Shown: piece after piece, positions 24,026 through 36,105 of the stretch
How the letters are laid out: each line of letters begins with the position of its first letter
Numbering within the stretch: the stretch's first letter is position 1
DNA from: Bacillota bacterium
Lineage (GTDB): Bacteria > Bacillota > Dethiobacteria > DTU022
Assembly: GCA_016874655.1 (NCBI GenBank)
Contig: VGTO01000008.1
Span: 1-36,461, forward strand
DNA: 36,461 nt
Direction of reading: 5' to 3'
Translations under genes and position numbers: made by a program
Notes under the pieces: model-generated
What the model was told of the DNA's origin: nothing
The model's database searches: none
Seen by the model: the letters and a program-made list of their open reading frames with translations, nothing else

Positions 24026-24850
24026 ATGAACAACAAAAAAATTCACTATGAGCCTGATTACAACCTGCTGAACCGCAAGGCGAAGAAAGATGAAGCGACG
24101 CCCCGAACCAGCAGCAGTGAAAAACTGATCAACCGCCTGTTAACAGGAGCAAAACAACCGGAACCGATCGCTAATGATCCCGCCATCTTTAAAGAGCTTT
24201 CAGAAGAAATATCGACGATTAAAGCAAGTATTGACTGGGGACAGAATCTCTTAGATGCCTCATATGTTGTTTTTGACACCGAGACCACCGGCCTGCACCC
24301 TTATATGGATGATGAAATAATGGCCATCGGTGCCCTGACGATCAACAATGCTAAAATATCGACGCTTCATAGCTTTTATCGCCTTGTCAACCCCAGGCGC
24401 CCAATCCCCTCTGTTGCCAGGCGAATCACCGGTCTCGATGATAGCATGGTTAAAGATGAACCACAAATTATCCCGGTGCTGCTCGATTTTTTAAGGTTTT
24501 GTGGGCCGCGGATCCTCATTGCCCACAACGCGCCCTTTGATCTGGCCTTTATCAATATGAAGATCAGCGAAAGTACCGGCAGACGTATTGTAAACCCGGT
24601 AATTGATACCGTCCTGCTCACCTCAGCCCTTCACTATTCCCTGGGCGACTATTCGCTGGAGAACCTATCTACAGTTTTCAAGCTGGATTTAAGCAACAGG
24701 CACCACGCCCTCGGCGATGCCCACATTGCAGCAGAGCTTTTCTTAAAGCTACTTCCCGAGCTGGTCAACCGCGGTGTCACCAATCTTCATCAGTTGGCCG
24801 CGTTATTCAGCGACTCCGACCTGACAAAAGGTTACCCGCTGATCTTTTAA
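24026..24850 (+). CDS. DEDDh 3'-5' exonuclease (DnaQ-like)
   Basis: A 274-residue protein with an N-terminal extension of about 78 residues and a DnaQ-fold exonuclease. The catalytic residues are Asp84 and Glu86 (FDTETTG), Asp172 (HNAPFDLAF), and His226/Asp231 (HHALGDAH). It follows the DUF294 protein by 18 bases. Proteins of this kind regularly accompany DUF294 proteins beside carboxylate symporters; the reason is unclear and a role in nucleotide or RNA turnover is as likely as DNA proofreading. Its end overlaps convergent argH by four bases. Confidence 0.88.
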   Translation: MNNKKIHYEPDYNLLNRKAKKDEATPRTSSSEKLINRLLTGAKQPEPIANDPAIFKELSEEISTIKASIDWGQNLLDASYVVFDTETTGLHPYMDDEIMAIGALTINNAKISTLHSFYRLVNPRRPIPSVARRITGLDDSMVKDEPQIIPVLLDFLRFCGPRILIAHNAPFDLAFINMKISESTGRRIVNPVIDTVLLTSALHYSLGDYSLENLSTVFKLDLSNRHHALGDAHIAAELFLKLLPELVNRGVTNLHQLAALFSDSDLTKGYPLIF

Positions 24851-26223
24851 GGTGTCAGGGATTCAATGGCCTTTTCAATCTGCACCCTCACCGCTGCCGG
24901 GGCAGTTCCACCCCGACTGTTTCTGGCTTCAACCACCCGGGCCGGATCAAAAAGCTCATCAATTCTTTCAGCCAGCGATGAATGAAAACCTTTCCGCTCC
25001 TCCGTGTTCAGTTCCCGCAGACGTTTATGGTTACGGGCTGCATAGGCAATCATTTCACCAACAATGTGATGGGCGTCCCTAAAGGCAACCCCTTTCGACG
25101 CCAGGTAATCGGCAATATCTGTAGCACACAGGTAATCATCATCAATCGCTTTCGACAATCGATCCCTCTTTACAGTCATGGTTTGCAGCATGCCGGCAAA
25201 AAGAGGCAAGATCGCTTTCAGCTGATCGACAACATCAAAGAGGCCTTCCTTATCTTCCTGCATATCTTTGTTGTAAGCCAGGGGCAGGCCTTTCATCATC
25301 GTTAACATAGCCAGCAGGGCTCCGTAAACCCGGCCTGTTTTGCCCCGTACAAGTTCAGCAACATCAGGATTTTTTTTCTGCGGCATCATACTGCTTCCGG
25401 TTGTGTATGCATCATCAAGTTCAATAAAACCAAACTCAGAGCTGCTCCAAATGATTAACTCTTCGCAAAACCTGCTTAAATGCATAATCAGAATTGATGC
25501 GAAAGATAAAAAATCGATCAGGTAATCGCGATCGCCTACTGCATCAATGCTATTTTCGTAGAGTGAGCCAAAGCCAAGTTTTTCGGCAACTAACTCCCGA
25601 TCAATCGGGAAACCGGTCCCAGCTAAAGCCCCGGCACCAAGGGGCATCAGGTCAGTGCCTTTTGCCACCCCTTTAATTCGTTCACGGTCACGTCCTAACA
25701 TCCAGAAGTAAGCAAGCAAGTGATGGGAGAACAAAAGTGGTTGCGCTCGCTGCAGGTGAGTGTACCCGGGAATGATCAGACCTTCGTTTTCCTTAGCCAG
25801 TTCAACAAGGGCTTCCTGTAGGCTTTTTAACAGTTGATCAATCAAGGCCAGTTCTTCGCGCAGGTAAAGGTGCATGTCAAGCGCTACCTGATCATTGCGA
25901 CTGCGTCCGGTATGCAGCTTTCCCCCTGCCGGACCGATTATTTCGATTAGCCGTTTTTCAATATTCATGTGAATATCTTCAAAGGCAAGATCTTCCGGAA
26001 AAGTTCCGCTTTCGATTTCCACGGCTATTTGCTTCAGTCCATCGACAATAGCAGCCCCTTCGGTGGCAGAAATAATCCCCTGCACGGCGAGCATTTCAGC
26101 ATGGGCAGTACTACCCTTTAGATCACAAAGAGCCAGGCGCCGATCAAAAGGCAGTGATGCTGTAAACTCTAAAACCCGATCATCCAGTTCTTTTTCAAAA
26201 CGGCCCTGCCATGGTTTTTTCAG
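24847..26223 (-). CDS. argH: Argininosuccinate lyase, CTG start
   Basis: Splits argininosuccinate into arginine and fumarate. The signature GSSMMPQKKNPDVAEL, HTGRSRNDQVA and TTGSS-type loop are all present. An internal ATG at 26094 would give 415 residues and remove the conserved N-terminus. Upstream codons in the same frame read KKPWQGRFEKELDDRV, FTASLPFD, DLKGSTAHAEM, exactly as in ArgH. No ATG, GTG or TTG exists between a TAG and this segment; a CTG at 26223 lies 10 bases after GGAGG and overlaps the argG stop as CTGA. That start gives 458 residues, the usual length. The two genes should be translationally coupled. Confidence 0.93.
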   Translation of the reverse strand: MKKPWQGRFEKELDDRVLEFTASLPFDRRLALCDLKGSTAHAEMLAVQGIISATEGAAIVDGLKQIAVEIESGTFPEDLAFEDIHMNIEKRLIEIIGPAGGKLHTGRSRNDQVALDMHLYLREELALIDQLLKSLQEALVELAKENEGLIIPGYTHLQRAQPLLFSHHLLAYFWMLGRDRERIKGVAKGTDLMPLGAGALAGTGFPIDRELVAEKLGFGSLYENSIDAVGDRDYLIDFLSFASILIMHLSRFCEELIIWSSSEFGFIELDDAYTTGSSMMPQKKNPDVAELVRGKTGRVYGALLAMLTMMKGLPLAYNKDMQEDKEGLFDVVDQLKAILPLFAGMLQTMTVKRDRLSKAIDDDYLCATDIADYLASKGVAFRDAHHIVGEMIAYAARNHKRLRELNTEERKGFHSSLAERIDELFDPARVVEARNSRGGTAPAAVRVQIEKAIESLTP

Positions 26224-27452
26224 TTTTTCCCGGCCTCCTTCTTCTGCCTAGCCTTAATTTCAACCATACCCCTGATCGTCATTGGCAGCCCATAAAGATT
26301 GATAAAACCCTGAGCATCTTTCTGTTCGAAAAGCTGATCATCTTCGAACGTAACCATCCCGTGATGATAAAGGGTATGCGCAGACTCCCGGCCACTGACA
26401 GCAATGTTACCCTTATAAAGTTTCATCCCAATTGTGCCGGTCACCTTCTCCTGTGTCTTTTGGATAAAAGCGTCAAGTGCTTCGCGCAGTGGAGTGAACC
26501 AGAGACCGTAGTAGATCATTTCGGCATATTTTAGGGCTATCCCTTCTTTATAATGATACAGGTCGCGATCAAGAGTATAGTGTTCCAGCTCACGGTGAGC
26601 AAATGAGATCAACGTGCCACCCGGGGTCTCGTAAATACCGCGCGATTTCATGCCCAGAAAACGATTTTCCACCATATCGATCCGCCCTATTCCATGGCGA
26701 CCGGCAATAATATTTAGCTCTTCGACCAGCTTTACCGGACTTTGACTTTTACCATTCACCGCGAAGGGAATCCCCTTTTCGAAAGAAATTGTCACTTCTT
26801 CCGCCTGGTCGGGTGCATCAAATGGGTCAACAGTCAGACGATACATATCTTTTTCCGGCTCCCGGTCAGGGTCTTCCAAAATGCCTCCTTCAAAACTGAT
26901 ATGCCAAAGATTGCGATCAATACTGTAGGGTTTTTCTGCCGTAACCGGGATCGGTATGCCGTGACTACAAGCGTAATCCATACAATCACTGCGTCCCTTC
27001 AAATCCCACTCGCGCCACGGCGCAATTATTTTTAAATATGGGTTAAGGGCCTTTACTGCAAATTCAAACCGTACCTGGTCATTGCCCTTACCGGTCGCCC
27101 CGTGCGCCACTGCTGTAGCCCCGACTTTTTCTGCGATTTCTACCAGCTTTTTACCGATCAAGGGTCTTGCAATAGCAGTCCCCAGTAGGTATTTGCCCTC
27201 GTAAACTGCACCGGACTGCACCATTGGAAAGATATAATCCCTTACCAACTCTTCGCGCAGATCTTCGATAAAGATCTGCGAGGCACCGGTTTTGATTGCT
27301 TTCGCTTCCAAACCTTCCAGCTCGCTGTCGCCCTGACCGACATTAGCTGTCATGGCCACAATCTCGTAATCATATTTTTCCTGCAGCCACTTAACAATCA
27401 CCGATGTATCCAGCCCTCCCGAATAAGCAAGGACCACTTTTTCTTTAGCCAT
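26220..27452 (-). CDS. argG: Argininosuccinate synthase
   Basis: Joins citrulline and aspartate with ATP, the penultimate step of arginine synthesis. The 410 residues begin with the PP-loop VVLAYSGGLDTSVIVKWL and include GATGKGNDQVRFE and SDCMDYACSHGIPIPV, all family hallmarks. The ATG at 27452 is preceded by AAAAGGAGGAAG. Expression is controlled by the T-box leader immediately upstream, so it should respond to uncharged tRNA-Arg. It overlaps argH by four bases at its stop codon. Confidence 0.97.
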   Translation of the reverse strand: MAKEKVVLAYSGGLDTSVIVKWLQEKYDYEIVAMTANVGQGDSELEGLEAKAIKTGASQIFIEDLREELVRDYIFPMVQSGAVYEGKYLLGTAIARPLIGKKLVEIAEKVGATAVAHGATGKGNDQVRFEFAVKALNPYLKIIAPWREWDLKGRSDCMDYACSHGIPIPVTAEKPYSIDRNLWHISFEGGILEDPDREPEKDMYRLTVDPFDAPDQAEEVTISFEKGIPFAVNGKSQSPVKLVEELNIIAGRHGIGRIDMVENRFLGMKSRGIYETPGGTLISFAHRELEHYTLDRDLYHYKEGIALKYAEMIYYGLWFTPLREALDAFIQKTQEKVTGTIGMKLYKGNIAVSGRESAHTLYHHGMVTFEDDQLFEQKDAQGFINLYGLPMTIRGMVEIKARQKKEAGKN

Positions 27453-27904: not shown

Positions 27905-29446
27905 TTAAAGTGGTATATTACCGTGCTTACGCATCAACCGCTGTTCGCGTTTATTTTCAACCATTTCGAGACCCCGAATCAGGTACGCCCGTGTTTGACG
28001 GGGATCGATTACCTCATCGATCCAACCCCTGGCCGCGGCAATATAGGGGTTAGCATATTTATCCCGGTATTGCTGAACTAGTTCCTGGCGTTTGGTATTT
28101 TGATCTTCAGCCGCCTCCAACTCCCGCCGGTTGACTATGTTAACCGCCCCTTCGGGACCCATCACCGCAATTTCGGCCATTGGCCAGGCCAGACAAAGAT
28201 CGGCGCCCAGAGAACGGGAGTTCATAGCAATGTAGGCACCACCGTAAGCCTTTCTTAAGATAATAGAAATCTGGGGCACCGTCGCTTCTGAGTAAGCATA
28301 AAGAACTTTTGCTCCATGGCGAATAATGCCACCCCACTCCTGTTCTACTCCGGGCAGGTAACCGGGTACATCCACAAAAGTGATTAGGGGCAGATTAAAA
28401 CAATCGCAAAAGCGAACGAAACGGGCGATCTTATCGGAAGAGTTTACATCAAGGCAACCGGCTTTGAACATTGGCTGGTTAGCAATAATCCCGACCGGTT
28501 TGCCGCCTAAACGGGCAAAACCGACTACTGCATTCTGGGCATAACCCTCATGCACTTCCATCAGGTCGCTGTTATCGACAACCCTTTTAATTACATCGCG
28601 CACATCATAAGAACGGTTTGGATTATCAGGCATAATCGTTAATAGTTCTTCCTGGTTTAATTCAGGCTCGCTAAATGCGGCCAGCGGTGGATTGTCAATA
28701 TTATTGGAGGGCAAAAAACTAAGCAAACGGCGAATCTGAGCGAAGCACTCTTCCTCTTGATCAGCATAAAAATGAGCAACACCACTGGTCTGGTTATGAG
28801 TGGCAGCGCCGCCCAGTTCCTCGGCTGAAACCTCCTCCCCGGTGACCGCCTTGATCACCTGCGGTCCGGTAATAAACATATTGCCGATCTTGCTGACCAT
28901 GAAAACAAAATCGGTGATTGCCGGAGAATACACCGCACCTCCGGCACAGGGGCCAAGGATTACCGAAAGCTGGGGGATCACCCCTGAGCATAAAGTGTTG
29001 CGATAAAAAATCGATCCAAAACCGTTTAGCGAATATACTCCCTCCTGGATCCTCGCGCCGCCGGAATCATTAAGACCGATCACGGGAGCCCCGTTCTGGG
29101 CTGCTAAGTCTAAGATCCGGCAGATCTTAGCTGCGTGCACTTCACCGAGCGAACCGCCGGCAACTGTAAAATCCTGGGCATATACATAGATGCGGCGCCC
29201 TTCAATCGTTCCATAGCCGCTGACCACCCCTTCACCGGGATTGGGGTATTCAAGCGAGCTGGCATCCTCTAAGCTGGTCTGAGCAAAGGTGCCAATCTCC
29301 ACAAAGCTGTCTTCATCCAAGAGCTTGTTCAGCCTTTCCCTGGCCGTCAGTTTGCCTTTGCCATGCTGGTCCTCAATTCTTTTTTCACCGCCACCGGCCA
29401 AAGTCCGGCTTCTCCGTGCTTCCAGGTGTTCTAATTTATCATTCAT
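27905..29446 (-). CDS. Acyl-CoA carboxyltransferase subunit (PccB / methylmalonyl-CoA carboxyltransferase type)
   Basis: A biotin-dependent carboxyltransferase subunit of 513 residues acting on propionyl-/methylmalonyl-CoA, judged by its operon. Motifs: GKLTARERLNKLLDEDSF, GGSLGEVHAAKI, NDSGGARIQEGV, the oxyanion GPCAGGAVYSPA, and PGYLPGVEQEWGGIIRHGAK. These proteins serve as propionyl-CoA carboxylase beta, transcarboxylase 12S or methylmalonyl-CoA decarboxylase alpha; the sequence alone does not separate them. The biotin carrier and its partner carboxylase or decarboxylase subunits are not in the window. I prefer ATG 29446, where the typical N-terminus begins, over a GTG at 29467. Last gene of the operon. 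Confidence 0.9.
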   Translation of the reverse strand: MNDKLEHLEARRSRTLAGGGEKRIEDQHGKGKLTARERLNKLLDEDSFVEIGTFAQTSLEDASSLEYPNPGEGVVSGYGTIEGRRIYVYAQDFTVAGGSLGEVHAAKICRILDLAAQNGAPVIGLNDSGGARIQEGVYSLNGFGSIFYRNTLCSGVIPQLSVILGPCAGGAVYSPAITDFVFMVSKIGNMFITGPQVIKAVTGEEVSAEELGGAATHNQTSGVAHFYADQEEECFAQIRRLLSFLPSNNIDNPPLAAFSEPELNQEELLTIMPDNPNRSYDVRDVIKRVVDNSDLMEVHEGYAQNAVVGFARLGGKPVGIIANQPMFKAGCLDVNSSDKIARFVRFCDCFNLPLITFVDVPGYLPGVEQEWGGIIRHGAKVLYAYSEATVPQISIILRKAYGGAYIAMNSRSLGADLCLAWPMAEIAVMGPEGAVNIVNRRELEAAEDQNTKRQELVQQYRDKYANPYIAAARGWIDEVIDPRQTRAYLIRGLEMVENKREQRLMRKHGNIPL

Positions 29447-29482
29447 AACACTCACCGCTTTCTTCACGATTCTTTTGACAAG

Positions 29483-29881
29483 CTAACGTTCACAAATTTC
29501 GATTAACACCCCGCCCGTTGATTTGGGATGTAGAAAGGCGATCTTCGCCCCACCGGCTCCATAGCGCGGTTTTTGATCAATCAAAGCAACGCCCTGCTGT
29601 TTTAGCTGCTCGAGCTTTTCTTCAATGTTCGAGACCCTGAAGGATAGATGGTGCACACCGCCACCCTTTTTTTCTATAAACTTTCCGACCGGGCCTTCCG
29701 GGTCGGTTGATTCCAACAGTTCAATCTTACTTTCCCCAACCGGTAAAAATGCAACTTTGACTTTTTGCTCTTCTACTACCTCGGTGCCCTTGCATTCCAG
29801 GCCTAGTTGATCGCGGTATAATTCTAGAGCATCTTCAAGGTTAGTTACAGCTATCCCGATATGATCTACCTTTTCAAACAT
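29483..29881 (-). CDS. mce: Methylmalonyl-CoA epimerase
   Basis: Interconverts the (R) and (S) forms of methylmalonyl-CoA, linking the carboxyltransferase to the mutase. The 132-residue glyoxalase-fold protein starts [12 protein letters not shown], has [15 protein letters not shown] and GVLIEICE, supplying the metal-binding His/Glu residues, and the family-typical [21 protein letters not shown] split across its C-terminal half. Length is normal. It lies between the mutase small subunit and the carboxyltransferase. Confidence 0.95.
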
Positions 29882-29898: not shown

Positions 29899-30300
29899 TT
29901 AGTTTAATTCAAGTTTATTCCTAATAAAATTAACAATATCCACCGTTGAAGAACCGGGTGTAAAAACTTCAGCCACACCGTGTTCTTTCAAATAAGCAAT
30001 ATCATCACGGGGAATAATCCCGCCAATAATAACGATTATATCACTGCTCTCCTTCTCACGCAGCATCTCAACCACCGGCGGAATTAATTGCATGTGCGCT
30101 CCGGACAAGATGCTTAAACCGATTACCTGGACATCTTCCTGCAGCGCCGCTTCCACTATTTGTTCCGGAGTCTGCCTTAATCCGGTATAGATAACCTCCA
30201 TACCCGCGTCCCGCAGCGCCTGGGCTACCACCTTTGCCCCACGATCATGGCCATCAAGACCAATCTTACCGACCAGGACCCGAATCAGTTTATCGGACAT
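29899..30300 (-). CDS. Methylmalonyl-CoA mutase, cobalamin-binding small subunit
   Basis: A 133-residue B12-binding domain protein. GLDGHDRG contains the histidine that replaces dimethylbenzimidazole as lower cobalt ligand; SILSG and IIGGIIP complete the DxHxxG...SxL...GG pattern. It pairs with the separately encoded catalytic subunit directly upstream. Split mutases of this kind occur in archaea and many anaerobic Bacillota. The ATG follows GGAGG by seven bases. Confidence 0.95.
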
Positions 30301-30351: not shown

Positions 30352-32025
30352 TTAAATTGTGATCTGCTGCTGGTACTCACCAAATACATCACGTAAAACC
30401 CCGCAAATTTCGCCGAGAGTAGCGTAGGCTTTAACCGCCTCAAATATCGCCGGCATCAGGTTGTCACTGCCCTGAGCAGCTCGCCTCAATTCCTGAAGAG
30501 TTTCTGCCACCTTGGCCTGGTTACGGCTGAGCCTGACCTCTTTAAGTCGCTCAACCTGTCTCTGGCTGGTAGCGGGGTCCATTTTAAGCAAGTCGATCGG
30601 CTGTTCACCACTGATTGTAAATTGGTTTACACCAACCACAACCCGTTCCTGTGATTCAATCTCTTTCTGGTAACGATAGGCGCTGGCCTGAATTTCTTTT
30701 TGAATAAAACCTTTTTCAATCGCTTCCACAGCACCGCCGATCTCATCGATCTTTTTGATATAGCTCAATATTTCGTTTTCAATCTGATCGGTCAGTTTCT
30801 CAATAAAATAAGACCCACCCAACGGATCAACCGTATCAGTAACCCCTATTTCATAGCCGATTACCTGTTGGGTACGCAACGCCAGAAGGACAGAAGGCTC
30901 GCTTGGTAAAGCAAGCGCCTCGTCACGCGAATTGGTATGTAGTGACTGAGTCCCACCTAATACGGCGCTAAGGGCCTGGTAGGCTACGCGCATTAAATTA
31001 ACATCGGGTTGTTGGGCTGTCAGAGTTGAGCCTGCCGTCTGAGTATGAAACCGCAGCATCATCGAGCGCGAATTTTTGGCTCCAAAACGTTCTTTCATCA
31101 AACGAGCCCAAATCCTTCTGGCGGCCCTGAATTTCGCAATTTCTTCAAAGAAATTCGAATGAGCATTGAAGAAGAAGGATAAACGGGGAGCAAACTGGTC
31201 CACTTCCAGACCCGCGGCAACTGCCGCTTCAACATAGGCAATAGCATTACCCAGGGTAAAAGCCACTTCCTGGACCGCCGTGGAACCGGCTTCACGAATA
31301 TGATAGCCGCTGATGCTGATTGTATTCCAGTTTGGAATCATTTTACCAGCATAGGCAAAGATATCGACAATAATGCGCATCGATTCCCGAGGCGGGAAAA
31401 TGTAAGTGCCCCGGGCCACATATTCTTTCAAAATATCATTCTGGATGGTGCCATCGAGCTGCTCCATCGCAATACCCTGTTTTTCAGCTACCGCCATGTA
31501 CATAGCCAGCAATACCGCTGCCGGTGAATTGATTGTCATTGAGGTGCTGACCTGATCAAGGGGGATTTGATCCATCAGGATCTCCATATCAGCCAACGAA
31601 TCGATCGCCACCCCCACTTTACCCACTTCTCCACGGGCCAGGGGGTGATCTGAGTCATAACCGATCTGGGTTGGCAGGTCAAATGCTACGCTGAGGCCGG
31701 TTTGCCCCTGTTCCAGCAGATAGCGAAACCTCTCGTTGGTTTCTTCAGCACTCCCAAAACCCGCGTATTGCCGCATGGTCCAAAGGCGCCCGCGGTACAT
31801 GGTTGGTTGAATACCCCGGGTATAAGGATACTCACCCGGCCAATTAAGCTGTTCGCCGTAGTTAAAAGAATCCAAATCAAGGACATCATAAACTCTTTCG
31901 ATTTCATAATCAGAATCAGTTTTGAAAGTTTTACGCTCCGGGTGCTTTTCCGATGACTTTTGGACTTTTTCATGCCAGGTTTCTTTTGCTGCAACAAGCT
32001 CAGAATCACTCTGTTGCTCACTCAT
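30352..32025 (-). CDS. Methylmalonyl-CoA mutase, catalytic large subunit
   Basis: Rearranges methylmalonyl-CoA and succinyl-CoA by an adenosylcobalamin radical mechanism. The 557-residue protein contains only the TIM-barrel part and no B12 domain. Tyr87 in MRQYAGF and Arg217 in ESMRII correspond to the residues (Tyr/Arg) that distinguish methylmalonyl-CoA mutase from isobutyryl-CoA mutase (Phe/Gln). Other landmarks are [29 protein letters not shown] and [14 protein letters not shown]. No MeaB-type GTPase chaperone gene is found in the operon. It is preceded by sucD-like and followed by the small subunit. Confidence 0.95.
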
Positions 32026-32063: not shown

Positions 32064-32930
32064 TTAAATTTTTTCCTTGATCAATTGGACAATTTCAGCT
32101 GGTAAAGCGGCAACCTTAACCCCGGCTGCAGTAAGCGCTTTGACCTTACCGTCGAAGGTGCCTTTGCCCCGCTCAATAATCGCCCCGGCATGACCCATTC
32201 TTTTGCCCGGGGGAGCACTTTTCCCGGCCAGATAGGCAATAACCGGCTTTTTGATTTCCCTGGCAATAAATTCAGCGGCCTCTTCCTCGGCGCTACCGCC
32301 GATCTCTCCGACCAGCACAATCGCTTTCGTTTCCGGATCGGCTTCAAACTGCTTTAAAACATCGATAAAGTGCAGGCCCACCACCCGATCTCCACCGAGG
32401 CCGACAACTGTTGTGGTGCCGGTTTGACTGGCCGTCAGGTGGCCGACGATCTCATAACAGAGAGTTCCACTGCGTGAAACCACCCCAACCGGACCGGGGA
32501 TAAAATACTTATTAGGCATAATGCCGATTTTACTCTGGCCCGATGAAACAAGGCCGAAAGTATTTGGACCAACAACCACCGCACCCTTGGTTTTTGCATA
32601 AGCCATGATATCCATGGCATCATGCAGTGGTATATGTTCGGGTATCAGCACTAATAATTTAATACCGGCATCTAAGGCTTCAAGTGCTGCATCACGGGCA
32701 AAAGGCGCAGGAATAAACAGGATTGATGCTTCAGCAGGTTGTTGTTCCATCGCTTCAAAAACTGTATCAAACACCGGCACCCCTTCAACGCTTTGCCCGC
32801 CTTTACCCGGCGATACCCCGCCGACAATACCGGTGCCGTACTCCAGCATCTGCCCGCTATGAAACGAACCCTGCTTTCCGGTAATGCCCTGAACCAAGAC
32901 GCGGGTTTGCTTATTTATATAAATAGCCAT
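32064..32930 (-). CDS. sucD: Succinyl-CoA synthetase (ADP/GDP-forming), alpha subunit
   Basis: With the beta subunit makes ATP or GTP from succinyl-CoA. The 288 residues include the CoA-binding [15 protein letters not shown], the [10 protein letters not shown] motif and the phospho-histidine loop [13 protein letters not shown]. Length is normal. In this operon it converts the mutase product and succinate, giving substrate-level phosphorylation in one direction. Related malate-CoA ligases exist, but the mutase context favours succinate. ATG 32930 follows AAGGAG. Confidence 0.92.
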
Positions 32931-33008: not shown

Positions 33009-34118
33009 CTAAGAAGCACGTGCAGATTCTACCGCCCGGCGCACAGCATCGTCCATTGTGCTAAAAACCCTGATCCCTGCTTTTTCTAAGATTGCCTTTC
33101 CTTCAGTTTCGTTGGTTCCAACTAAACGGAAAGAAACAGGCAGATCAAACCCCTTACTATCCCTGACCTTGACAAAGGCCTCTGCCACTACATCGCAGCG
33201 GGTAATACCGCCAAAAATATTGATCAAAAGGACCTTGGGATTGGTGCCAAGTAAAAGTTCAAGAGCCTGGGAGGTTCTTTCCACATCTGCTCCGCCTCCG
33301 AAGTCCAGAAAGTTAGCGGGCTGCCCGCCATAGTGTTGAACCATATCTAGAGTAGCCATTGTAATCCCGGCGCCGTTAGCCATGATCGCAATGTTGCCAT
33401 CGAGTTCAACATAGGCCAGATCAAGCTCTTCAGCGCGTAATTCGAGAGCGGTTTTCTCCTTAATCTTCGGCAGGGTGGGGTGACGGTAAAGTGCATCATC
33501 GTCGATGGTCACCTTGGCATCAGCTGCCACCAGACCCTGCGGTGTAACCGCTAGCGGGTTAATCTCAGCCAGTTCAGCATCCAGATCACGGAAAAGCTGA
33601 TACAGTTTGGGCATGAAGGATAAAAATTCTTTTTGTAGCTGGCCGCTTACGCCCAGCCTACGGCATATTTCACGTACCGTATAGTCCTGCATGCCGATCG
33701 AAATATCGATCGGCCACTTAATCATCCGCTCCTCCGGAACTTCCTCAATGTCCATCCCACCGTCCAGGGAAGCAAGGACAATCGGCCTTTTGGCTGAACC
33801 ATCAACGGTCAAAGCTAAATAGAGTTCCTGTTCAATCTGCAGTTTTTCTTCAACCAACAATTTTTCCACTACCAGATCGTTCAATTTCATCTGCAGAATA
33901 CGTCCGGCCTCTTCATGGGCCTGTTCCGGATTGGAAGCAAAAGAGATACCCCCAGCTTTACCTCTTTTGCCGCTTAAAACCTGGGATTTAATGACCACAT
34001 CACCCAGTCCGGCAGCAGCCTCAGCAGCCTCTTTTGCACTGACCACAACTTGTCCGCGCGGTACCGGGATGCCATATTCTTTAAAAAGCTCTTTACCAAG
34101 ATACTCATAAAGCTTCAA
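33009..34118 (-). CDS. sucC: Succinyl-CoA synthetase, beta subunit
   Basis: A 369-residue ATP-grasp beta subunit: MKLYEYLGKELFKEYGIPVP, QVLSGKRGKAGGI, ELYLALTVDGSAKRPIVLAS in parts, AEINPLAV, and the CoA-ligase half with NGAGITMATLD, NFLDFGGGA and INIFGGITRCD. The start is TTG at 34118, seven bases after GGAGG; no in-frame ATG fits better. Slightly shorter than the ~386-residue E. coli protein, as is common in Bacillota. It is the first enzyme gene after the regulator. Confidence 0.92.
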   Translation of the reverse strand: MKLYEYLGKELFKEYGIPVPRGQVVVSAKEAAEAAAGLGDVVIKSQVLSGKRGKAGGISFASNPEQAHEEAGRILQMKLNDLVVEKLLVEEKLQIEQELYLALTVDGSAKRPIVLASLDGGMDIEEVPEERMIKWPIDISIGMQDYTVREICRRLGVSGQLQKEFLSFMPKLYQLFRDLDAELAEINPLAVTPQGLVAADAKVTIDDDALYRHPTLPKIKEKTALELRAEELDLAYVELDGNIAIMANGAGITMATLDMVQHYGGQPANFLDFGGGADVERTSQALELLLGTNPKVLLINIFGGITRCDVVAEAFVKVRDSKGFDLPVSFRLVGTNETEGKAILEKAGIRVFSTMDDAVRRAVESARAS

Positions 34119-34147: not shown

Positions 34148-35836
34148 CTAACTGCTGTATTTTTTCAGCTTATTATATAGAGTAGCAAGTGAAATGTTCA
34201 AGGCCTGGGCTGCTTTTTTCTTACCTTCCAGATTCTCACCATAGCGGGTCAGCGCCAGCTTAAGCATTTTTTCTTCAATTTTTTCAAGCGGTAAGATCTC
34301 CTCAAAAGAGGAGAGGTCGTGTAGCCCAAGGCGTCCAATATATGGCAGCAGGTGATGGTACTCGATAATGGACCCATCGGCTTCAATCATTGCCCGCTCC
34401 AGAGCACTTTTTAATTCGCTGATATTCCCCGGCCACTCGTAGGCCATCAACTCCTGCATTGCCCTGGCTGAAATCTCATTAACTGACCGACCAAGCTTAC
34501 GGTTAAGCCCGACCATTAAATTTTCCGCCAACAATGGGATGTCGTCCTGGCGCTTGCGCAGTGGCGGCAGGTCAATTGACACCAGGCTAAGCTTGCGGTA
34601 AAGTTCTTCCGAAAAGTAGCCCTTATAGGAGGCATCGAGCAGGTTTTCTCCGGCGGAAGCAATAATCCTTACATCTGTGGGAATTTCCTGTTCACCGCCA
34701 ATCCTGACAAATGAATGCTGCTCTAAAACCTTGAGTAACTTTTTCTGTAAAAAGGGATTCAGGGAATTAATCTCTTTGACAAAGAGTGTGCTACCTTCAG
34801 CAAGTTCAAGCTTGCCCAACCTGGTTCGCAGGATGCCCGGCATTGCTCCTTTTTCACAGCCAAATAGTTCAATCTCCTGCAGGGAGTCAGGAACTGATGA
34901 GCAATCGAAAACGATTAGAGGGCGTTTATTCCTTGAACTGCCGCTGTGAATGGCCCGCGCAAAAAGGCTTTTCCCGGTTCCGCTTTCACCACTGATCAGC
35001 AGAGATGATTCACTTCGCGCTACTTTACGGGCCTTTTCGACAGTAGCACAAAATATTCTGCTTTGCCCGACTAACATCTCAAAACTGCATCTAAATCCAG
35101 ATATCTGGTCAATCTGAGCATAAAGATTATCAATAATCGTGTTACTGTGCTTCAGCTCATCCATTAGCTTTAAAATATCGCCAACCGGTTGAAAAACAAC
35201 TACCGCCCCCATTATTTCACCATCAACAACAATCGGCGAAGCATTGGAGATAACATCAGCAGCTGAGCCGCCAACATAAGTCCGGTATCCGGTAACCGGT
35301 TTTTGCTGGATCAAAGCCTGGGCAAGAGCACCATGGGGTGATACATCGAAGATCGAGCGGTTAATCCTTTTCTGCTCGGGGATTCCGGTAACCCGGCTGA
35401 AAGCGGGATTAACATACTTGACCAGGCCCTTGGCATCAACAACCTCTACTGCATCCTGCACCGAATTTAAGATCGCCAGAAGCTCACCTTTGAGCAGCCT
35501 GGTTTCTGATAGTTTTTCACGGGAGCTAAAAATGGCGTGCAGTACTGAACCCGGAATCAGTTGCTCATACTTAACTTTTTTATTGATTCTCTGCTTCAGA
35601 TAATCCCCAACTTCCGGTTCGCCGGTTCCATCGATCACGGCGTCAAGATCACTCAAAGCGATTATTTTATCAAGATCAGCGGTGATGAAATATTTCTTGC
35701 GCTCTGAGTCAGTGATCCAGTCAATTACTCCATCGGGACAAGCCAGGGCAACCAGCTCCAGTTCCGGACACTGTTTAAGAAAATGCAACAGGTCCGAACC
35801 CTGATCACCGCGGAGGACAAGGGCTGTTTTGATCAA
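34148..35836 (-). CDS. Operon regulator: Rossmann-like + PAS + degenerate AAA+ + Fis-type HTH
   Basis: A 562-residue protein resembling sigma-54 activators but altered in the core. Residues 1-105 look Rossmann-like (ALVLRGDQGS; DLDAVIDGTG), 115-225 is a PAS domain, 258-480 an AAA+ domain and 525-562 a Fis-type helix-turn-helix (KKAAQALNISLATLYNKLKK). Walker A is intact (GESGTGKS, 283-290), but the GAFTGA loop reads GAMPGI (330-335), the Walker B aspartate is Lys354 (LFVKEI), and the sensor I region reads ASAGEN. It heads the methylmalonyl-CoA operon, like MmcZ in Pelotomaculum. The start is TTG after GGAG. It probably controls this operon without activating sigma-54 conventionally; that is inference. 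Confidence 0.88.
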   Translation of the reverse strand: MIKTALVLRGDQGSDLLHFLKQCPELELVALACPDGVIDWITDSERKKYFITADLDKIIALSDLDAVIDGTGEPEVGDYLKQRINKKVKYEQLIPGSVLHAIFSSREKLSETRLLKGELLAILNSVQDAVEVVDAKGLVKYVNPAFSRVTGIPEQKRINRSIFDVSPHGALAQALIQQKPVTGYRTYVGGSAADVISNASPIVVDGEIMGAVVVFQPVGDILKLMDELKHSNTIIDNLYAQIDQISGFRCSFEMLVGQSRIFCATVEKARKVARSESSLLISGESGTGKSLFARAIHSGSSRNKRPLIVFDCSSVPDSLQEIELFGCEKGAMPGILRTRLGKLELAEGSTLFVKEINSLNPFLQKKLLKVLEQHSFVRIGGEQEIPTDVRIIASAGENLLDASYKGYFSEELYRKLSLVSIDLPPLRKRQDDIPLLAENLMVGLNRKLGRSVNEISARAMQELMAYEWPGNISELKSALERAMIEADGSIIEYHHLLPYIGRLGLHDLSSFEEILPLEKIEEKMLKLALTRYGENLEGKKKAAQALNISLATLYNKLKKYSS

Positions 35837-35971
35837 AAGCTAACGCTCCTTCCTTCTTCACCTTAGAATATTCGTAAATATTAGAAGAAATCCTGCCTGC
35901 GGCCTTCTTTTTCCACAAACTTCATCGATACTGGCCTTGATCATTAAACGGCGATAGATTGAAGCAACTTG

Positions 35972-36018: not shown

Positions 36019-36105
36019 GCGGGCGTGGCGGAACTGGCAGACGCGCTGGACTTAGGATCCAGTGGGAGCAATCCTGTGGAGGTTCAAATCCTCTCGCCCG
36101 CACCA
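36019..36105 (+). tRNA. tRNA-Leu (UAG)
   Basis: Acceptor GCGGGCG pairs with CGCCCGC, anticodon loop CTTAGGA with anticodon TAG, long variable arm, T-loop GGTTCAAATCC, CCA encoded at 36103-36105. Second leucine tRNA of the window, with a different anticodon from that at 10479-10568. Confidence 0.96.

Follow-up and report, generated by a model that had tools for sequence, protein, structure and literature searches.

A methylmalonyl-CoA operon regulator that appears to have lost its sigma-54 motor, and the conserved SigH-type promoter element beside it

Why would a bacterium keep, at the head of a catabolic operon, a protein built like a sigma-54 activator but lacking the residues needed for ATP hydrolysis, and from what kind of promoter would such an operon be transcribed? 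The question is raised by a gene in the window, by which we mean the whole stretch of DNA analyzed, 36,461 nucleotides of a Bacillota bacterium that make up the entire contig VGTO01000008.1 of a 2.1 Mb assembly (GCA_016874655.1). Checked against the translation, the open reading frame of the original prediction, its coordinates and all the residues it quoted are correct. The gene is followed closely, on the same strand, by genes of the methylmalonyl-CoA pathway:

34148–35836, minus strand: regulator gene, 562 aa, TTG start; Rossmann-like domain, PAS domain, degenerate sigma-54-type AAA+ core with lid, and Fis-type HTH
33009–34118, minus strand: sucC, succinate-CoA ligase beta, beginning 29 bp past the regulator stop
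32064–32930, minus strand: sucD, succinate-CoA ligase alpha
30352–32025, minus strand: methylmalonyl-CoA mutase, large part
29899–30300, minus strand: methylmalonyl-CoA mutase, B12-binding part
29483–29881, minus strand: methylmalonyl-CoA epimerase
27905–29467, minus strand: carboxyltransferase, methylmalonyl-CoA decarboxylase alpha family, scoring 824 bits where the curated cut-off is 999

The TTG start is preceded by a good ribosome-binding sequence, GGAAGGAG, and lies 26 bases past a 34-bp upstream element. Farther along the same strand the methylmalonyl-CoA genes are followed by argG and argH (24847–27452, minus strand), and upstream of the regulator lies a divergent tRNA-Leu (tag; 36019–36105, plus strand), a neighbor apparently kept in several relatives (L035, L037, L038 and L043). 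This tRNA is also the sole match in an Rfam search for an RNA leader or riboswitch. The order regulator-sucC-sucD-mcmA recurs in nearly all orthologue loci, and the closest named relative, Firmicutes bacterium UBA993, stands at 84% identity. A comparable arrangement is that of MmcZ of Pelotomaculum thermopropionicum, which we take to be the product of the regulator gene heading that organism's methylmalonyl-CoA pathway cluster; the two are likened by gene position at the head of the cluster, not by sequence. The mmc cluster is described in PMC6046458, and the part of that source available to us contains no mention of the cluster's regulator.

The features of the core on which the question turns are as follows:

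34574–35074, minus strand: AAA+ (Sigma54_activat) core, residues 255–421, a profile match
34967–34990, minus strand: Walker A, GESGTGKS (GESGTGK being residues 283–289), with Gly and Lys unchanged in all 25 clade members
34832–34849, minus strand: GAMPGI, residues 330–335, replacing GAFTGA (L1 loop)
34775–34777, minus strand: codon of Lys354 (in LFVKEI), replacing the Walker B Asp, with Lys in 25 of 25 clade members
34643–34660, minus strand: ASAGEN, residues 393–398, an altered sensor I
34589–34621, minus strand: GYFSEELYRKL, where Ser409 and Lys415 stand at the two arginine-finger positions

Its membership in the family is clear, as the protein matches PF00158 (Sigma54_activat) at 163.8 bits against a cut-off of 20.2, and in the full-length structure model the AAA+ part is good, with pLDDT mostly 80–93 except in the L1 loop, and the PAS part poor. 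The original prediction held that the GAFTGA loop, the Walker B Asp and sensor I had changed together with the P-loop and the Fis HTH retained; this is borne out by the sequence, and alignment with intact family members extends the list to both arginine fingers (R-finger 1, Arg to Ser409; R-finger 2, Arg to Lys415) and sensor II (Arg to Ser473), with a switch Asn that has become Asp311. Residue roles here are assigned by family alignment and named after PspF and NtrC1, as in PMC7175178. In GAMPGI the F, the T and the final A of GAFTGA are all substituted, which leaves no working loop, and the Walker B Asp and arginine fingers needed for ATP hydrolysis are replaced by Lys354, Ser409 and Lys415. 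The conclusion that the sigma-54 motor has been lost in this protein is thus supported by its sequence.

The genome as a whole has not lost its sigma-54 system, since it encodes rpoN and six further activators whose loops read GAFTGA or GSFTGA. These same genes, together with an AAA+ fold that is predicted to be kept, give some substance to the idea that the protein is a sigma-54 regulator still, one that joins one of the six in mixed hexamers and has a dominant-negative or modulating role there. We consider this very improbable: the operon is without a -24/-12 site, the HTH and the upstream element are co-conserved at this operon only, and both arginine fingers are gone, hence a partner's site would not be completed.

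Several catalytic motifs lost jointly might also be taken as the mark of recent decay, or of a pseudogene on its way out, and here the orthologues, which were located in many genera of the window's family and beyond, are decisive. Among 25 clade members related to the window protein, the Walker A Gly and Lys and the Lys at the Walker B Asp position are present in all 25, while Pro at GAFTGA position 4, loss of R-finger 1 and loss of the sensor II Arg are each found in 24. The substitutions are therefore conserved as a group, as the homologue alignment called for by the original prediction was meant to reveal, and because 25 orthologues carry them they are no sequencing artefact. That prediction had named intact homologues in sister species as the sign of recent decay; instead, members of the same genus and of many other genera of the family share the changes. 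Open reading frames are intact in all orthologues located, Lys354 is invariant, and dN/dS over the AAA+ domain is 0.02–0.11 in degenerate pairs, in the range of partly intact pairs, a comparison in which synonymous sites are saturated for most pairs; the degenerate pair of lowest divergence (dS 0.30) has a value of 0.10. Purifying selection therefore maintains the domain, and we reject recent decay as scarcely credible on the strength of this conservation and the low dN/dS. Intact copies at the regulator-sucC locus are found in other families only, and because intact-motor relatives hold the same locus in those other lineages, the loss is better described as old and fixed.

The degenerate forms make up one clade (SH-aLRT 99), with the intermediate and intact members outside it. 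There a graded series starts from intact proteins (GAFTGA, DE, both fingers); in one set of intermediates (L062, L064 and L065) the sensor I Asn and the fingers are lost, and in another (L055 and L057–L059) the Walker B Glu has become Asn and the loop reads GAFSGA. On a long branch beside the degenerate clade, L061 (G040) has core losses of its own, DAYPGK in the loop and YIEGV at Walker B.

The domains on either side of the core have fared differently from one another:

35522–35836, minus strand: Rossmann-like domain, residues 1–105, GxGxxG lost (LRGDQGS)
35183–35482, minus strand: PAS domain, residues 119–218, among the most conserved parts in orthologues
34157–34288, minus strand: Fis-type HTH, residues 517–560, nearly identical in intact and degenerate members

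The N-terminal domain has no Pfam match. AlphaFold gives the approximately 105 N-terminal residues, which include DAVIDGTG at residues 65–72, a Rossmann-like fold (pLDDT 85), and a fold search with this model returns as nearest the NAD(P)-binding domains of aldolase-dehydrogenases, homoserine dehydrogenase and GFO/IDH/MocA proteins, the best match reaching Z up to 10.4 over 111 residues at an rmsd of 3.7. As to the earlier suggestion of a dinucleotide-binding-like N-terminus that might sense NAD(H), then, structure prediction upholds the fold, and the sensing is weakened. Most intact orthologues have both GxGxxG and an Asp after beta 2, but these are lost in the window's clade (LRGDQG and Cys33 in the window protein itself), and because of this loss NAD binding and sensing by the window protein are doubtful.

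If the protein no longer works with sigma-54, one may ask what lies upstream of it. Directly before the regulator is a conserved element with the following parts:

35863–35896, minus strand: 34-bp element GCAGGATTTCTTCTAATATTTACGAATATTCTAA, proposed promoter and operator
35891–35896, minus strand: -35 box of SigH type, GCAGGA
35869–35874, minus strand: -10 box of SigH type, CGAATA, in AGGA-N17-GAAT spacing
35863–35886, minus strand: TTCTAA-N12-TTCTAA across the promoter spacer and the -10 box, a putative operator

Both intact and degenerate members have the element in front of the regulator. Searched with a relaxed pattern, it occurs in 25 of 60 genomes, one copy in each, with no control matches, and those copies that could be placed adjoin the regulator gene; in the window's genome it is unique, no further operator copy being found at up to 3 mismatches. 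Its boxes resemble those upstream of spoVG, a known SigH gene, in relatives, and it is from the relatives that this support comes, because upstream of the window's own spoVG (L131) there is a weak SigH-type match only. The spacer is conserved beyond what is seen at spoVG (mean identity 0.83 vs 0.54, for spacer lists picked by hand). An A-tract upstream of the -35 box is conserved too. The dyad within the putative operator is weak (8 of 12 positions by eye), and the direct repeat is clearer. On account of the extra spacer conservation and the TTCTAA repeat, we read the conserved spacer as probably an operator.

With a spacing of 17, AGGATTTCTTCTAATATTTACGAAT fits the SigH pattern of AGGA, 17–18 nt and GAAT, and sigH is encoded in the window's genome. 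The same motif, AGGA-N17/18-GAAT, was derived in Sporomusa from mapped transcription starts, and energy metabolism is among the functions that SigH serves there (PMC12456013). From this motif resemblance we infer that the element may be used by SigH. The original prediction assigned the operon to ordinary RNA polymerase; a sigma-70-class polymerase is indeed most likely, and its housekeeping form is probably not the one, the conserved element being of SigH type. A consensus scan of the coding strand from the gene to the tRNA yielded no housekeeping sigma-A promoter.

Two departures from the usual layout were seen among the relatives. In one locus (L056:7672-10448) some 2.8 kb of other sequence lies between the regulator and sucC, and sucC has a copy of the element in front of it, the second at this locus; in two others (L062 and L065) a second copy of the repeat, TTCTAA-N11-TTCTAA, lies about 60 bp farther upstream than the main element, and that of L065 comes without an AGGA box, as would fit a site for a separate protein contact.

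Intact members of the family, for their part, mostly have a sigma-54 promoter nearby. The absence of a -24/-12 promoter upstream of the window's gene, claimed at the outset, was confirmed by scan, and the regulator-sucC gap has none either. Across 1.16 Mb of strand-summed locus DNA there were 19 strict matches, the majority lying a short way downstream of intact regulators of this family. In a scan of 400 nt downstream at each locus, 16 of 20 loci that lack the element gave a -24/-12 site, against 0 of the 34 that have it and 0 of 33 with damaged cores. These counts are not independent of one another: on the tree the exclusion amounts to one or two independent events and the element state to two changes, and in a phylogeny-corrected test of element against sigma-54 promoter there are too few independent changes for significance. 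The weakest of the 16 calls (L087, 279 nt downstream) may fall within sucC. In intact members the sites precede fumarase, sdhC or, in L082, sucC of the mmc operon, and in the window's clade the regulator-sucC gap is mostly 27–70 nt and without such a site.

The direct relatives of the window protein are intact Rossmann-PAS activators beside fumarase, sdhC or sucC in other Bacillota (L069–L072, L082 and L090–L103). They share its four-domain layout, a close HTH and the same class of targets; they differ in having a working-type motor, a mostly intact Rossmann motif and, in most cases, a -24/-12 promoter 100–360 nt downstream. These activators appear to control fumarase, succinate dehydrogenase or succinyl-CoA synthetase through that promoter in many Bacillota. 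We did not find such control in the literature searched, and the main text of a survey of sigma-54 regulons in Clostridiales contains no Pelotomaculum, methylmalonyl-CoA, fumarate or succinate.

We think it reasonably probable that the window protein regulates its own operon independently of sigma-54, at a SigH-type promoter, and that it does so as a PAS-gated autorepressor. The ancestor would have been a sigma-54 activator of C4-dicarboxylate or methylmalonyl-CoA genes, with its own SigH-type promoter and an activated -24/-12 promoter just downstream. What looks like this layout survives at the same operon in L082, where an intact core has a SigH-type promoter upstream of the regulator and a -24/-12 site, ATGGCATGAAAATTGCT, before sucC. 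In the window's lineage the downstream promoter would have been lost and the regulator and sucC merged into one tight operon; with that loss the regulator's promoter would become the operon promoter by read-through, so that the whole operon would now be transcribed from it. The protein would no longer remodel sigma-54 polymerase, and its unchanged Fis HTH would bind the predicted operator TTCTAA-N12-TTCTAA, most likely to repress its own operon, with its grip altered by a PAS ligand. The AAA+ part may have been retained as an oligomerizing, probably nucleotide-binding but non-hydrolyzing module.

The placement of the putative operator over the promoter suggests repression. The alternative is a sigma-54-independent activator at the same SigH-type promoter, recruiting or remodeling polymerase when PAS ligand or nucleotide is bound. 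Precedent exists in Rhodobacter capsulatus NtrC, which acts via sigma-70 and needs ATP binding but not hydrolysis, and in VpsR, which needs no ATP (PMC10274813); the Walker A motif is invariant in the clade, and the conserved A-tract 5' of the -35 box leaves space for upstream contacts. Against this, the extra conserved bases fall within the spacer and on the -10 box, positions at which a bound protein usually blocks polymerase, and a second upstream copy of the repeat occurs in only two loci of one clade (L062 and L065). Activation is in our judgment rather unlikely. Less likely again is that the element is another regulator's site, or an unusually strong SigH promoter, and that the protein acts elsewhere. 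SigH use alone would account for the two boxes; but the spacer and the TTCTAA repeats are conserved far beyond the spoVG promoters of relatives, no genome searched gave more than one copy of the element, which lies beside the regulator gene where it can be placed, and the locus whose sucC lies 2.8 kb from the regulator has a second copy before sucC.

The order of events can be read in part from the survivors. Seven orthologues combine the element with an intact motor. The presence of the element thus does not by itself call for motor loss, and these seven loci suggest that the promoter change preceded that loss. Dismantling would then have run from sensor I and the arginine fingers, through the Walker B Glu, to the L1 loop, the Walker B Asp-to-Lys change, sensor II and the NAD motif. 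Adjoining sdhC, L098 and L104 have a deleted GAFTGA loop (ELFGQES---EGPEKI) with Walker B intact, sdhC about 38 nt downstream, a SigH-type promoter upstream and no -24/-12 site, apparently a second, independent loss. It is possible, though we would stop short of calling it probable, that such promoter capture has happened at least two times, in the mmc operon and in the sdh operon of L098/L104: the -24/-12 promoter is lost, the SigH-type promoter takes over, the idle motor is dismantled stepwise and the sensor and DNA-binding parts stay, with Lys354 marking a new hydrolysis-dead function of the P-loop in binding a nucleotide or metabolite.

The general kind of protein is already established. 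Relatives of sigma-54 activators that work at sigma-70 promoters include TyrR, DhaR, HupR, the NtrC proteins of R. capsulatus and Caulobacter, and VpsR (PMC3162934, PMC10274813); in these the GAFTGA loop is lost or altered, the AAA+ domain and HTH are kept, and the targets are of sigma-70 class. Pro at GAFTGA position 4, as in GAMPGI, is a preferred substitution among aberrant homologues (PMC3162934). The window protein belongs with TyrR, HupR and VpsR by its activator ancestry and lost sigma-54 contact loop, but is also altered in the Walker B Asp (to Lys), sensor I, both arginine fingers and sensor II, and its system differs in the Rossmann and PAS sensor, the SigH-like promoter and the graded intermediates surviving at the same locus. 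By score its best named equivalog is PrdR (NCBIfam NF041552), at 317 bits over PAS-AAA+-HTH, well short of the cut-off of 795 bits. The SigH regulon of Sporomusa and related acetogens likewise has AGGA-N17/18-GAAT upstream of central energy-metabolism genes; unlike for the window's element, no operator-like conserved spacer is mentioned in the available part of that account (PMC12456013). What is new here is the combination of a degenerate Rossmann domain with PAS, a clade-fixed Walker B Asp-to-Lys change, a SigH-type promoter with an operator-like spacer, and preserved intermediates.

Switching from sigma-54 to sigma-70-class promoters has been known mostly from scattered end points such as TyrR, HupR and VpsR. 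Here intact, intermediate and converted forms stand at one conserved operon with the promoter change beside them, which makes the order and the cause of the switch testable. For the degenerate clade, annotation as a sigma-54 regulator would be wrong, and the prediction that follows for these anaerobes is that their propionate/methylmalonyl-CoA pathway would be under SigH-type control.
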